A stretch of DNA of 36,899 nt from a virus. The notes under the pieces are model-generated. The model saw nothing but the letters and a program-made list of their open reading frames with translations. It was not told where the DNA came from and made no database searches. The DNA is taken from positions 1 to 36,899 of the IMG/VR virus record IMGVR_UViG_3300003267_000017. One strand, 5' to 3'. Shown piece by piece: positions 5,782 through 29,145 of this stretch (its first letter is position 1; the number at the start of each line of letters is the position of its first letter). The position numbers and the translations under genes are program-made.

Positions 5782-7325
5782 TGGTACGCAAAGCCCAAAG
5801 CCAAATTGCGCGCCAGCAAGTCTCGCGCACTACGTCTATTCCGGCTCCGACTGGTGGATGGAATGCGCGTGACAATATCGCCAATATGGACCCGCAGGAC
5901 GCTGTAATCCTGCAAAACTTCTTCCCGGCAACGACCAGCGTTCAGCTTCGTCATGGCTCAACCAATTGGGCGACAGGCCTAGGCAATCAGGTGAATAGCC
6001 TGATGGTCTACAACCCAACGGCCAGCACAAATAAAATGTTTGCGGCGGCTGGCGGAAATGTCTACGACGTTACTTCACCTGGTGCTGTCGGCGCTCCTGT
6101 CCTGACCAGTCAGACCAACGACAAATGGCAGTACATCAACTTCGCCAACTCTGGCGGAGTGAAGCTGCTGATGGTAAATGGGGCGGATTCTGGCCGGATC
6201 TATGATGGGGCTACGTGGTCTGCGATGGCTCTCACAGGGGCTAATTCGCAGGACATGATCCATATCGACCGATATGCCAATCGGGTATGGATGATCCAAA
6301 AGCAGTCTCTGACGGCTTGGTATCTTGCCGTAGGAGCGATCCAAGGGGCCGCCACATCGTTTGATCTGACGCCTGTATTCCAGCGCGGCTCCTATCTGGT
6401 GGCCCTTGGCGTCTGGACGGTGGATGCCGGTGATTCGTCTGGCATGACGGATTACCTATGCTTCGTTACTAATCAGGGCGAAGTGGCGATCTATCAAGGA
6501 TCAGATCCTAGCCAAGATACGACATTTAGCAAGAAAGGCGTCTGGAAGCTAGGCGCGCCGATGGCGACTCGTTGCCTGATGAAGATGGGTGGTGATCTTG
6601 TCTATATCGGGCGCGATGGATTGGCTCCATTCACAAAGGCTCTTGCGTCGTCCCGCGTGAATACGCAGGTGAATCTGACTGGTAAGATCGATGGTCAGAT
6701 CAATATCGCGACAAGTCTGTATGCTGGCATCTTTGGCTGGCAGACGATGCTGTTCCCGACGAATAATATGCTGTTCCTGAATATTCCTGTATCTGTAGGG
6801 AATCAGGAGCAATATGTGATGAATACCATCACAGGTGCATGGTGTCGCTTTACTGGATGGGCCGCAAATTGCTGGGATCTGTTTAACGAGCAACCATTCT
6901 ATGGTGGTAACGGTGTTGTCGTCCGTGCATGGGATGGCTCCTATGATGACAACGGGTCGGCTATCGTAGGGGAAGCCTTGCAGGCGTTCTCTTATATGGG
7001 TTCGTCGCAACTGAAACAATGGGTCATGGCCCGCCCTATCATCCAGACCAATGGAGCGCCAGGTATCCAGATGGGTCTCAATGTCGATTATGACACGACA
7101 CCTCCTGTCGGCACTCCTGGGTTCTCTCAGCCGACCTATGGAATTTGGGATGCTGGGCTATGGGATAACGCCATTTGGGGGACGGATTCGCTAGTCCGCA
7201 AGGATTGGCAGTACATCTCTGGCGTAGGCTATTCTGCTGCTATTCACTTCCGCATCGGTTCTCTCGATGCTTCTGTGAACTGGGCGAGTACGGATTATCT
7301 TATGAGAGATGGCGGCGTCATATAG
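5781..7325 (+). CDS. Tail protein, beta-propeller-like (P22 gp10-type packaged-DNA stabilisation/tail hub)
   Basis: This 514-residue protein matches the large tail protein that follows the adaptor in P22-like podoviruses. It opens with IPAPTGGWNARDNIANMDPQDAVILQNFFP, a hallmark start. The body is made of repeated beta-strand blades (for example GSYLVALGVWTVDAG, LCFVTNQGEVAIYQGSDP, GDLVYIGRDGLAPF). The C-terminus has YGIWDAGLWDNAIWG. Such proteins close the portal channel and form the tail hub to which fibres attach. P22 gp10 is 472 residues, so the length fits. The start overlaps the HNH stop, with AAGGAAG upstream. Confidence 0.75.
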   Translation: MVRKAQSQIARQQVSRTTSIPAPTGGWNARDNIANMDPQDAVILQNFFPATTSVQLRHGSTNWATGLGNQVNSLMVYNPTASTNKMFAAAGGNVYDVTSPGAVGAPVLTSQTNDKWQYINFANSGGVKLLMVNGADSGRIYDGATWSAMALTGANSQDMIHIDRYANRVWMIQKQSLTAWYLAVGAIQGAATSFDLTPVFQRGSYLVALGVWTVDAGDSSGMTDYLCFVTNQGEVAIYQGSDPSQDTTFSKKGVWKLGAPMATRCLMKMGGDLVYIGRDGLAPFTKALASSRVNTQVNLTGKIDGQINIATSLYAGIFGWQTMLFPTNNMLFLNIPVSVGNQEQYVMNTITGAWCRFTGWAANCWDLFNEQPFYGGNGVVVRAWDGSYDDNGSAIVGEALQAFSYMGSSQLKQWVMARPIIQTNGAPGIQMGLNVDYDTTPPVGTPGFSQPTYGIWDAGLWDNAIWGTDSLVRKDWQYISGVGYSAAIHFRIGSLDASVNWASTDYLMRDGGVI

Positions 7326-7853: not shown

Positions 7854-8988
7854 AACGCTGGAGGGCATTGGAGGAGGAAAAGGCGGTGGCGGATCTTCGC
7901 CATCCGCGCCAGATCCTTATGTTGTAGCTGACGCTGCGACGAAAATGAATCAGCAGACCGGCGCTTATAATAAAGCGCTGAATCTGAACAACTACACTAA
8001 TCCGTTTGGGTCGCAAACCAGTTCTATTACTGGTTATGACCAGCAAACCGGTGCACCGATCTATGGCACGAATGTAAGTGCAAATCCTCAGCTTCAAGGG
8101 ATACTAAATCAGCAACTTTCAAACGTATTAAATAGCTCTGGCTCACAGAGTGATATTTATCATGCATTGAATTCAAATGGTAACGAGTTTTATGATCTAA
8201 ATACTAAATTAGGATCTCTTGGTAATCAACTATCTGGATTGAATGCATCTGATGCAATGAAGGCTGGGCAGGACGCCTATTATCGTCAGGCATCCTCATA
8301 TCTTGACCCTCAATATGCTCAACAGCAAGAATCATTGGAGGCTAAACTTGCCGCCCAAGGTCTTGCGCCAGGTTCCCAAGCTTATAATAATGCTATGGGG
8401 AATTTCCAGCGGGACAAGGATTTTGCATATAACCAGGCTGCAAACTCAGCAATTACACAAGGTCAGCAACTTGGATTAAACCAAATGCAGGCGCAGCAGG
8501 GACTGATTGGCCAGCAGGCAGGGCTTATTGGTCAACAAGCTGGGAATGTTGGTCAGGCAAATACTACGCTGGGGCAAATGCTGGGGGTTTCGCAGCTACC
8601 TTATCAAAACCTTGGCTATATTGCTCAAATGATCCCTGGGTATTCTGGCCCTGCAACTAGCAGCGTTAATCCAGCTGATATTGGAAGTTATATTAATAAC
8701 CAGTATCAAGGACAACTTGGGCAATATAATGCACGCCAACAAGGGTCAAACCAATTTACTAGCGGGCTGATGGGGCTTGGTGGTACGCTTGGTGCTGCTT
8801 ATCTCATGTCTGATTCTAGAGTCAAGCGTGATATCAAGCTAATTGGTGACTGGAACGGAACGCCTGTTTATTCGTATCGATATGTGTTCGAGCAAAAGCG
8901 ACGGATTGGCGTACTTGCGCAGGAGGCCCCCAGCGAAGCAATAACGGATGCATGCGGCCTGTTGATGGTTGATTACCGGAGCCTCTAA
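7771..8988 (+). CDS. Virion/ejection-type protein with C-terminal S74-like intramolecular chaperone motif
   Basis: This 405-residue protein has a Gly/Ser-rich start (GGGKGGGGSSPSAPDP) and a long Gln/Asn-rich middle with a short repeat, LIGQQAGLIGQQAGNVGQ. A hydrophobic segment follows (GLMGLGGTLGAAYLM), and the last 59 residues begin SDSRVKRDIK. The Ser347-Asp...Lys352 spacing matches the start of peptidase S74 (tail-spike chaperone) domains, which cut just before that Ser. The domain here is short. The gene lies first in the row of ejection-type genes. The middle is more AT-rich than its neighbours. The start is uncertain: the ATG lacks a Shine-Dalgarno site, and no better one is in frame before residue 30. 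Confidence 0.7.
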   Translation: MRHYLTSLEYPDLPIKAFRKALGKNRPETLEGIGGGKGGGGSSPSAPDPYVVADAATKMNQQTGAYNKALNLNNYTNPFGSQTSSITGYDQQTGAPIYGTNVSANPQLQGILNQQLSNVLNSSGSQSDIYHALNSNGNEFYDLNTKLGSLGNQLSGLNASDAMKAGQDAYYRQASSYLDPQYAQQQESLEAKLAAQGLAPGSQAYNNAMGNFQRDKDFAYNQAANSAITQGQQLGLNQMQAQQGLIGQQAGLIGQQAGNVGQANTTLGQMLGVSQLPYQNLGYIAQMIPGYSGPATSSVNPADIGSYINNQYQGQLGQYNARQQGSNQFTSGLMGLGGTLGAAYLMSDSRVKRDIKLIGDWNGTPVYSYRYVFEQKRRIGVLAQEAPSEAITDACGLLMVDYRSL

Positions 8989-27246: not shown

Positions 27247-27329
27247 ACGCCGAAACCTGGATGATCGCTTACACCTGCGCACTGTTTGTAGTGGTGGCGG
27301 CGATCACTTACTTATTTTTCTGGAGATGA
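27243..27329 (+). CDS. 28-residue membrane peptide
   Basis: The peptide (M)NAETWMIAYTCALFVVVAAITYLFFWR starts at a GTG that overlaps the DUF551 stop (GTGA) and has one transmembrane helix. The next gene starts 3 bases after its stop. The tight packing supports it, but it is short. Function unknown. Confidence 0.45.
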   Translation: MNAETWMIAYTCALFVVVAAITYLFFWR

Positions 27330-27332
27330 GGG

Positions 27333-27506
27333 ATGGAACAAACGCTACAAGAACGCCTGATGGAAACCTACAACTGGCTCTGCGCGACCAGGGGCGTAAA
27401 GAAAGCCAGCGTAAAGCTAGACCAGGATGAGATGCTAGACATCCTCTGCGCGCTGAACTACGTCAAGGCAACGAAATTTGTTGAGAAACTAGTTGACGAA
27501 GCATAA
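27333..27506 (+). CDS. Small early protein of unknown function
   Basis: This 57-residue helical protein (MEQTLQERLMETYNWLCATRGVKKASVKLDQDEMLDILCALNYVKATKFVEKLVDEA) has GGAGATGAGGG before its ATG. It is the last gene before a 450-base non-coding region, and the promoter of that region begins inside its end. No family is recognised. Confidence 0.55.
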   Translation: MEQTLQERLMETYNWLCATRGVKKASVKLDQDEMLDILCALNYVKATKFVEKLVDEA

Positions 27507-27521
27507 TCGATAGTAAATAAT
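27493..27521 (+). promoter_or_regulatory. Strong sigma-70-type promoter for a structured RNA
   Basis: TTGACG (27493-27498), a 17-bp spacer and AATAAT (27516-27521) give 5 of 6 matches to both consensus boxes. This is the best promoter in the window. RNA would start near 27528. No gene follows for 430 bases; a folded RNA does. Confidence 0.7.
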
Positions 27522-27527
27522 ATATTC

Positions 27528-27682
27528 GTCTGGTGTGGCAGCCAGGTGAAGTATTAATGGGATAGGCGAGACTAAAGCTCGCAGTGTTTAGAGAAAGTGG
27601 AAGTGCATCGTGGACTACTATCCCGGAAAACGATGCCCGTCCCGCCAGACGGCCACTTTCCCTACGCATTGCGAGCTTTTTT
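27528..27682 (+). ncRNA. Structured non-coding RNA with three-way junction
   Basis: A 13-bp stem (27574-27586 with 27667-27679, one G-U) encloses a 6x6 internal loop and an 8-bp stem (GAAAGTGG 27593-27600 / CCACTTTC 27653-27660). Inside are two more hairpins: GCATCG / CGATGC (27605-27610, 27631-27636, 20-nt loop) and CCGTC / GACGG (27637-27641, 27648-27652). These make a three-way junction. Six T residues follow the outer stem, as in an intrinsic terminator. GCGAG at 27566-27570 could compete for the outer left arm. With the promoter at 27493 this defines an RNA of about 155 nt. No known family was recognised. Confidence 0.65.
27667..27682 (+). terminator. Terminator arm and T run of the structured RNA
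   Basis: The right arm of the 13-bp outer stem (CATTGCGAGCTTT) runs directly into TTTTTT. The long distance to its partner arm is unusual for a terminator, because the whole junction lies in the loop, so termination may depend on folding of the RNA. Confidence 0.5.
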
Positions 27683-27963
27683 GCATTCTGGCTGCCCACT
27701 AAATCGTGACCTTCGCGTAAGTAGTGAGCTTGCATCGGCTGCCAAGGAGAAAAGACCGGCCCTGTTACACCACAGGCGACGCCGATCCAGACTTGGCGTA
27801 GGTATTGGATGTAGCTATCAGATTCATGGGTGAGACAAGCCTGGTAGCGAAGTGAATACGCCCCTCTTGGGCACTTGGTTTCTTACTGGCAGTACAGGTA
27901 GGAAATGGAGAATGGGTGAAGGCTTATCACCCTTGGGCAGGGTATCGACTAAGGAGATGGGAT
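27683..27963 (+). other. Second folded non-coding stretch / leader before 27964
   Basis: No credible gene is present. Pairings seen are CTGGCTGCC (27688-27696) with GGCAGCCAG (27537-27545) back in the first RNA; CACTA / TAGTG (27697-27726); ATCGGC / GCCGAT (27734-27739, 27781-27786); GCCAAG / CTTGGC (27741-27746, 27792-27797), which crosses the previous pair and so could form a pseudoknot; CCTGT / ACAGG (27761-27776); GCCC / GGGC (27860-27872); and GGGTGA / TCACCC (27914-27932). It may be a long regulated leader or the 3' part of a larger RNA. Confidence 0.45.
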
Positions 27964-28179
27964 ATGGACAAGAAAACCGCTTTTGAAGCTTGGTATTTCA
28001 AAGAAATGGGCATCGAACCAACTTATGAACGCGGATCTCTTTCAGAAGAACAGTTCGATGTTTGGCGAACAGCATGGGATTTGTCCAGGAAAAAGGCATT
28101 GGAAGATGCACTTCTAGTGGCTGAACATGCAGAAAGTTCCAGAGACATCATGGACCATCTGAAGGATATGAAAGCATGA
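27964..28179 (+). CDS. Small early protein of unknown function
   Basis: This 71-residue protein (MDKKTAFEAWYFKEMGIEPTYERGSLSEEQFDVWRTAWDLSRKKALEDALLVAEHAESSRDIMDHLKDMKA) has the E-A-W...W..AW pattern of many small phage early proteins. The ATG at 27964 follows AAGGAGATGGG. The open frame upstream from a GTG runs into the structured leader and is unlikely to be used. It overlaps the next tiny ORF by 4 bases. Confidence 0.65.
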   Translation: MDKKTAFEAWYFKEMGIEPTYERGSLSEEQFDVWRTAWDLSRKKALEDALLVAEHAESSRDIMDHLKDMKA

Positions 28180-28229
28180 TTCTGCTGATCTGGTGGATGC
28201 CGTACTACATATGGTTTAGGGGGATTTGA
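28176..28229 (+). CDS. 17-residue hydrophobic peptide (tentative)
   Basis: MILLIWWMPYYIWFRGI starts at an ATGA overlap with the upstream stop and ends one base before the next ATG. It is nearly all hydrophobic. The position and coupling match the other small membrane peptides of this arm, but the length makes it uncertain. Confidence 0.3.
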   Translation: MILLIWWMPYYIWFRGI

Positions 28230-28230
28230 G

Positions 28231-28605
28231 ATGGAAGAACTAAAACTGATCATGCAGACGCTAGCAGGGCTGGGTGAGACTGCTAAAGAGGGATTCATTT
28301 GGTGGCTGGTGATCGATAAGCTGGTGCCATCTGTGGTTTTGCTGACATTCATCGGATCTCTTGTGGGGTTGCTGGCTTATATTGCGCGGCGTGCATTTGG
28401 AGGCGCTCAGTCTGATCGAGAGCTGGAGCGCGAGAAAAACGATGCGATTATGGCTATTCGAACAATTCGTGGGATTCTCGGAGTCTATGCATATCCAAGC
28501 CAGCTCATGGATTGCAATGTCTATGACAGCAATGATATGAAGACGACTATCGATGCTGTGCGAACCGTAAAAAGCGCCGCAAATGCAAAGCAAGAACAAG
28601 CCTAA
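28231..28605 (+). CDS. Membrane protein of unknown function
   Basis: This 124-residue protein has an amphipathic N-terminus (MEELKLIMQTLAGLGETAKEGFIWWLVIDKL) and a transmembrane segment at about 31-52 (VPSVVLLTFIGSLVGLLAYIA). A cytoplasmic helix with charged residues (SDRELEREKNDAIMAIRTIRGILG) and a soluble end follow. It overlaps the next gene by 23 bases. No family is recognised. Confidence 0.65.
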   Translation: MEELKLIMQTLAGLGETAKEGFIWWLVIDKLVPSVVLLTFIGSLVGLLAYIARRAFGGAQSDRELEREKNDAIMAIRTIRGILGVYAYPSQLMDCNVYDSNDMKTTIDAVRTVKSAANAKQEQA

Positions 28606-28858
28606 GCCGACCGTGGCAGAACAAGCCCATATCCTGCGCATCAAGGAAATGGATTGCGGCTGCTGCGGGGCTTCTGGACCGTCTGACGCGCATGAGCTAA
28701 ACCAGGGCCAGTGGTTTACGTCCATTCCGCTCTGCAAGGACTGCCATCAAGGGAGTTTCAACGGAGTCCACGGCCAGCAGCGCATGTGGAAGGTTTTGAA
28801 AAAGGATGAGTTGTCAGTTCTAAATGACACTATCCGGATATTGATGGCTAGTATATAA
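28583..28858 (+). CDS. Ref-like HNH nuclease (RecA-dependent nuclease family)
   Basis: This 91-residue protein matches the small Ref/HNH proteins of phages. It has AHILRIKEMDCGCCGASGPSDAHEL (zinc Cys at about 25, 27-28 and the D-A-H motif), then FTSIPLCKDCHQGSFNGVHGQQRMW (second C..CH and the G-x-H-G segment). P1 Ref cuts DNA at RecA-made D-loops. The same may hold here, next to VRR-NUC and ERF functions. Its stop codon lies within the promoter-like motif of the H-NS gene. Confidence 0.75.
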   Translation: MQSKNKPKPTVAEQAHILRIKEMDCGCCGASGPSDAHELNQGQWFTSIPLCKDCHQGSFNGVHGQQRMWKVLKKDELSVLNDTIRILMASI

Positions 28859-28866: not shown

Positions 28867-29145
28867 ATGACGACATATGCAGACATCATGATCCAGATTA
28901 AGGACTTGGAAGATCAAGCGGCGGTTGCTTGGAAGACTGAGCGGACATCGGCTCTGGAACGAGCTAAGAGCTTGGTCGCGGAGTTCAGGCTGACGCCGAA
29001 AGAGCTATTTCCAGGTGCCAAGCGATATGTAATCCCGGTGAAATATCGAGATGGCCAGAATACATGGACTGGTCGCGGGAAAATGCCATTGTGGCTTCGT
29101 TCCAAGGTAGAATCGGGTATTGCGCTAGATACTTTCAAGGTCTGA
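28867..29145 (+). CDS. H-NS family nucleoid-associated protein
   Basis: This 92-residue protein has both H-NS parts: an N-terminal helical oligomerisation region (about 1-45, YADIMIQIKDLEDQAAVAWKTERTSALERAKSLVAEF) and the C-terminal AT-hook-like DNA-binding loop KYRDGQNTWTGRGKMPLWL, with TWTGRGKMP at 66-74. The loop is of the betaproteobacterial H-NS type. Phage H-NS copies can silence or reset host and phage AT-rich promoters. There is no Shine-Dalgarno, and a -10-like box ends 7 bases before the ATG, so the mRNA may be leaderless or translation may be coupled to the Ref-like gene. Confidence 0.85.
   Translation: MTTYADIMIQIKDLEDQAAVAWKTERTSALERAKSLVAEFRLTPKELFPGAKRYVIPVKYRDGQNTWTGRGKMPLWLRSKVESGIALDTFKV

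Follow-up and report, generated by a model that had tools for sequence, protein, structure and literature searches.

A candidate structured non-coding RNA with a promoter-like start and a terminator-like end in a tailed-phage operon

A gene-free stretch within a compact phage operon very probably gives rise to a non-coding RNA that folds strongly and, according to consensus matches and folding models, has a promoter-like start and a terminator-like end. The window, by which we mean the whole stretch of DNA analyzed, is an IMG/VR virus record of 36,899 bases with a tailed phage gene set. It encodes a portal protein, a large terminase, and lysis-type and replication proteins, with an ERF recombinase on the minus strand. 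From about 24.7 kb on there is a plus-strand operon with hardly any gaps between genes; the exception is a gene-free gap of 457 nt (27507-27963) whose 5' part is filled by the structured element. From TTGACG to TTTTTT, this element spans 27493-27682. We tentatively favor, at somewhat under even chances, the reading that it is a discrete plus-strand phage RNA of about 155 nt that has its own promoter, is released at U6, and acts in trans as a small RNA (sRNA). The features of the region, all on the plus strand, are:

27333-27506, plus: upstream gene of 57 aa (translation, sequence); its last codons contain the -35 hexamer
27493-27521, plus: sigma-70-type promoter match TTGACG-17-AATAAT (consensus match)
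27507-27963, plus: gene-free interval, the whole candidate non-coding cassette; no ORF with a family match, close flanking genes
27528-27682, plus: predicted 155-nt RNA ending in U6; fold -64 kcal/mol, end placed by the T run
27533-27699, plus: predicted 12-bp outer helix 27533-27545/27688-27699; p 0.0024 for its 9-bp core
27559-27565, plus: GGGATAG, complementary to loop CTATCCC at 27618-27624 (7 Watson-Crick pairs); possible cotranscriptional intermediate or pseudoknot
27566-27582, plus: GCGAG/CTCGC, predicted alternative hairpin competing with the outer stem (prefix folds)
27574-27679, plus: long stem closing a three-way junction, core and terminator-like base (folding, inverted repeat)
27605-27636, plus: junction hairpin A, 7-bp stem (27605-27611/27630-27636) with an 18-nt loop that holds CUAUCCC 27618-27624 (folding)
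27637-27652, plus: junction hairpin B, 5-bp stem (27637-27641/27648-27652) with loop CCGCCA (folding)
27677-27682, plus: TTTTTT directly 3' of a GC-rich stem, intrinsic-terminator-like (sequence)
27700-27963, plus: rest of the interval, 264 nt, folding no better than shuffles (z -1.0)
27964-28179, plus: downstream gene of 71 aa in the operon, tightly flanking the gap

The promoter match consists of a -35 element (TTGACG, 27493-27498), a 17-nt spacer, and a -10 element (AATAAT, 27516-27521). It overlaps the 3' end of the upstream gene, which stops at 27506, and places the predicted start of transcription near 27528. On the plus strand of the 36.9 kb it is the sole match of at least 10/12 at 16-18 nt spacing. 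A contig-wide scan gave three minus-strand sites with an equal score; the claim in the earlier note that this is the best promoter in the window is right for the plus strand. Promoter-like matches of such kind are not rare in general, and the evidence for a promoter of its own, one of the marks of an sRNA gene, is a 10/12 consensus match with a 17-nt spacer, which is a match in sequence only. As the note also observed, the promoter leads into no gene, the 27507-27963 interval downstream being gene-free.

The fold that follows is exceptional. Region 27566-27684 has a predicted energy of -55.5 kcal/mol compared with -29.5 +/- 3.5 for shuffled sequences (z about -7.5), and none of 1000 dinucleotide shuffles fell under -40.9. 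When corrected for GC content, it is the most stable 119-nt segment of the 36.9-kb contig, with a residual of -21.9 (next best -15.5 and -14.9). The longer region 27493-27690 has a z of -4.84. An inverted repeat with 27-nt arms that are 85% complementary (27574-27600/27653-27679) contains a 13- to 14-bp outer stem plus an 8-bp stem formed by GAAAGTGG (27593-27600) and CCACTTTC (27653-27660). The architecture proposed earlier, in which a stem encloses both an 8-bp stem and two hairpins, was recovered with all of its parts in place.

The fold is near-equal on both strands (z -6.5 and -6.0). Because it does not discriminate between them, assignment of the RNA to the plus strand comes from the promoter and the T run only. 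This near-symmetry and the strength of the fold as DNA (z -6.2) speak for a DNA-level element, either a replication or priming signal or the relic of an inverted-repeat insertion, with no functional RNA made. An AT-rich stretch adjoins the element and replication genes lie 2 kb upstream. However, there is no GC-skew switch at this position (its turning points are near 17 and 24 kb), there are no iterons, the element is present in a single copy, and the promoter and T run would both have to be coincidences. We therefore consider a DNA-level element unlikely, and less likely than the two serious rivals discussed below.

Our main argument for an RNA gene is that the best fold, the only plus-strand promoter match of at least 10/12, and a T run all lie within 190 nt. 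We also count in its favor that an interval of an otherwise compact operon shows no evidence of coding, that it is kept unchanged in two contigs, and that structured cassettes about as large occur elsewhere in the operons of related phage contigs. Two ORFs exist in the region, one of 78 aa (27597-27833, plus strand) and one of 90 aa (27463-27735, minus strand), and either could be an unrecognized small gene, just as the stretch could be chance or degenerate intergenic DNA. However, neither ORF has relatives in Pfam or PHROGs, the 78-aa ORF has none by tblastn, and the fold is far outside the shuffles, making both explanations very improbable. A trans-acting, terminated RNA is ranked first because stand-alone RNA genes are built in this way, with a private promoter and a terminator.

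The predicted terminator is a GC-rich stem (GCTCGCA/TGCGAGC) followed by TTTTTT at 27677-27682, so the T run that the earlier note placed at the end of the structure is there. Seven T runs of at least six occur on the plus strand of the contig and one of them abuts the base of the strongest structure. A simple terminator scan with loops of 3-8 nt did not list this site. The 9 nt at 27537-27545 (GGCAGCCAG) are perfectly complementary to 27688-27696 (CTGGCTGCC; p 0.0024). Since the second segment lies beyond the T run, the outer helix could form only in RNA that reads past it, and this pairing makes a 3' end at 27682 likely rather than certain.

This helix spanning the T run points to a longer RNA. 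It could be a structured RNA of 175 to about 436 nt with the T run inside a helix, comparable to the cassettes of related phages, and the 457-nt interval is near the size of the second cassette of a sibling phage (448 nt) and of the intervals in Lessieviruses (292-485 nt). We regard this larger RNA as doubtful, and yet as a serious rival: the 264 nt at the 3' end are folded no more strongly than shuffled sequence, and U6 placed right after a GC-rich stem has the look of a terminator. Counting against the 155-nt reading are 281 nt of gene-free sequence 3' of the terminator for which it does not account. Of the compact RNA first proposed, the promoter match, stem, and U6 stand, and its extent is called into question by the 457-nt interval and the helix across the T run.

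The 5' part of the predicted RNA contains alternative pairings. GGGATAG can pair with CTATCCC (shuffle p 0.012 for a pairing chosen post hoc), and CTCGC at 27578-27582 offers a partner for GCGAG at 27566-27570. Prefix folding gave an intermediate with both GGGAUAG/CUAUCCC and GCGAG/CUCGC that is later replaced by the full terminator stem. In the final fold CUAUCCC lies in the 18-nt loop and GGGAUAG is weakly paired, which would permit a pseudoknot. A conformational switch, already suggested from the competition of GCGAG with the outer stem, is plausible in light of these models.

From the computed sequence features, the exceptional fold, and the absence of coding and family matches, we infer how a 155-nt RNA would be transcribed, terminated, and act in trans. 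Transcription would begin near 27528, driven by a sigma-70-type promoter that overlaps the 3' end of the upstream gene. The nascent RNA would first make the 5' intermediate and then refold into the long stem capped by the three-way junction, with its base abutting U6. Most transcripts would stop at about 27682, releasing the RNA, which would most likely act in trans as a phage sRNA by means of two parts, its exposed 5' segment and the 18-nt loop at the apex. RNA that reads through could form the outer 12-bp helix. Because the element sits inside an operon, the same terminator would partly insulate the downstream genes.

This last point leads to the main functional rival of a trans-acting RNA, which is also a serious one. 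The element could act in cis as an intrinsic terminator or attenuator, or as an RNase processing site, that lowers downstream transcription, with the short RNA as a by-product; either the alternative pairings of GGGAUAG with CUAUCCC and of GCGAG or an antitermination system of the phage would allow read-through. The position inside a one-direction operon, the terminator-like base with U6, the mutually exclusive folds, and an outer helix found only in read-through RNA all agree with this. By contrast, an attenuator needs no promoter of its own directly upstream, the junction is far more elaborate than a terminator, and no antitermination protein was recognized, the one match being weak (E 0.05). 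We give this explanation a low but appreciable probability.

Comparison with Rfam 15, which the earlier note had proposed, yielded no match at the gathering threshold in the contig and none in 27400-28050 at E up to 5. No GOLLD or ROOL model matched, ARAGORN detected no tRNA or tmRNA, and PHROGs and Pfam gave no match for the segment. This agrees with the earlier failure to assign the RNA to a known family and leaves it an orphan RNA. Three specific candidates were rejected. The window has no full match to a hammerhead descriptor (CUGANGA ... GAAA core, three stems). With 10 GGA in 457 nt against 9.8 expected there is no enrichment as in a CsrA/RsmA sponge. Model R1 of an RNA from a cousin phage and Lessieviruses (described below) scored at best 1.4 bits in the region versus 144-154 bits for its members. 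The suggestion of an antisense RNA gains no support within the phage, since pairing with phage start regions was not significant (p 0.19-0.69; phage messages only).

The phi29 packaging RNA has a three-way junction with interlocking complementary loops in its junction hairpins, and the window RNA shares its size class and three-way junction. However, by inspection the window loops GGACUACUAUCCCGGAAA and CCGCCA are not complementary, and genes for a large terminase and a portal are present in the phage itself, about 5 kb from the RNA, with no evidence of RNA rings. The idea of a packaging RNA is therefore unsupported. The lambda late leader (6S) RNA at pR'/tR' combines a strong promoter, a short untranslated leader, and a terminator in a phage operon. 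The layout predicted for the window RNA is the same, but no Q-type gene was recognized beside the window RNA, and the cassettes of related contigs occur at other operon positions. We take the window RNA to be more branched than typical Hfq-dependent sRNAs.

Structured RNAs encoded by phages are already known, and the window RNA would be one more of that kind. Small regulatory RNAs of phages have been reviewed (PMC12197685) and anti-sRNAs have been described from prophages (PMC4104026). The window RNA is likewise short and intergenic, starts in a promoter-like way, and ends at what resembles an intrinsic terminator, but has no relative among them in sequence or structure. GOLLD and ROOL are large structured non-coding RNAs of unknown function on phages and prophages (PMC12286853); the window RNA is much smaller, has no Rfam match, and has no tRNA genes nearby. 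Annotation of phage genomes deals almost exclusively with proteins; to the extent that the tools can tell, this operon holds an elaborate RNA gene that Rfam lacks.

The only relative found is in a mosaic sibling phage contig, IMGVR_UViG_3300003322_000077. Over 27306-28656 (1351 nt) the window has zero substitutions relative to this otherwise mosaic sibling, suggesting recent common origin or recombination. This block also holds coding genes, making the identity uninformative about constraint or selection, and because the only relative is identical there are no compensatory changes to score. When the entire interval was compared by blastn with phages (E to 10) and with plasmids, nothing credible emerged, and two exact-pattern scans of viral contigs found the sibling alone. 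Two further contigs from the second scan (L057 and L058) were set aside: they share only an 18-nt match that reads DYYPGK in an open frame and looks like chance. A blastn-type search of 399 Burkholderiales genomes and a search with model R2 of 369 genomes of the class found nothing; run without a positive control, these searches (about 770 genomes sampled) speak only weakly for its absence.

Structured RNA cassettes of other types are present in two related contigs. The second gene-free cassette of the sibling (L008 7983-8430, 448 nt, -197 kcal/mol, z -6.0) follows the stop of an H-NS-like gene and precedes the next ATG; at this point the window has a single base (29146). In the window, 28867-29145 encodes a phage protein that has the C-terminal DNA-binding domain of H-NS (Pfam PF00816, E 2.5e-10). 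The closing helix of the window RNA (GGCAGCCAG/CTGGCTGCC) resembles GGCAGGCAG/CTGCCTGCC in the sibling cassette, a likeness that is no more than suggestive (E 2.7 in 206 kb). At about 8041-8082, with CTGATGA at 8046, the sibling cassette has a hammerhead-like core, GUCGC-CUGAUGA-AGCGAAAGCA-GAA-ACCGAGAGGU-C-GCGAC, to which Rfam gave no score. It is the only match to a hammerhead descriptor in 1.11 Mb (both strands), with 0 in 588 kb of shuffled DNA, counts that estimate rarity and are not an independent test because the descriptor was written after the motif had been seen. In natural hammerheads, a stem II of two base pairs and a U-U mismatch at 10.1/11.1 have been reported (PMC3088659); the sibling motif has A-A at these positions instead.

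The second contig is from a cousin phage (L005, IMGVR_UViG_3300024279_000012) whose terminase is 80% identical. Upstream of its Sf6-type small terminase gene is a 631-nt structured gene-free region (6227-6857, -272 kcal/mol). Within it, a 125-nt core (6642-6766) is 87-89% identical to intergenic DNA of the Burkholderia Lessievirus phages BcepMigl and BcepIL02, in which this RNA is unannotated:

candidate RNA between the DUF2303 and SSB genes: L039 2757-3235 and L040 2751-3235 (JX104231.1 9217-9695 and FJ937737.2 8626-9110)

Besides the core, the 19.6 kb of the cousin contig and the first 50 kb of BcepMigl share only one match, of 68 nt. Across the three cores, three base pairs in two hairpins are changed on both sides, which supports a real conserved structure, albeit from three sequences only. 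With one related cassette thus backed by compensatory changes, structured RNAs appear to be real in this kind of phage. Like the window RNA, this one is structured, intergenic, unannotated, and in a phage operon; the two do not match in sequence or structure. In phages CSP3 and DC1 roughly 170 nt at the start of this candidate RNA region are retained and the core is missing, and blastn found no relative of the RNA in seven pattern-matched genome contigs.

Drawing on three contigs plus the Lessieviruses, we can envisage, at a rather low probability, that this phage group carries interchangeable non-coding 'moron' cassettes of ~300-630 nt, inserted after the stop codon of one gene and before the start codon of the next, every cassette encoding an elaborate RNA of its own. 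The RNA of the window would then be one of several unrelated types, beside a hammerhead-containing type and a type shared with Burkholderia Lessieviruses by horizontal transfer. If true, exchange of structured RNA modules between phages would be testable in culturable Burkholderia phages. In the cousin region, 6372-6406 has a sub-threshold match to the Pistol ribozyme (19.1 bits, gathering 34.5, E 0.5). The annotated minus-strand hypothetical protein (gp12) that overlaps the RNA in BcepMigl and BcepIL02 may be spurious.
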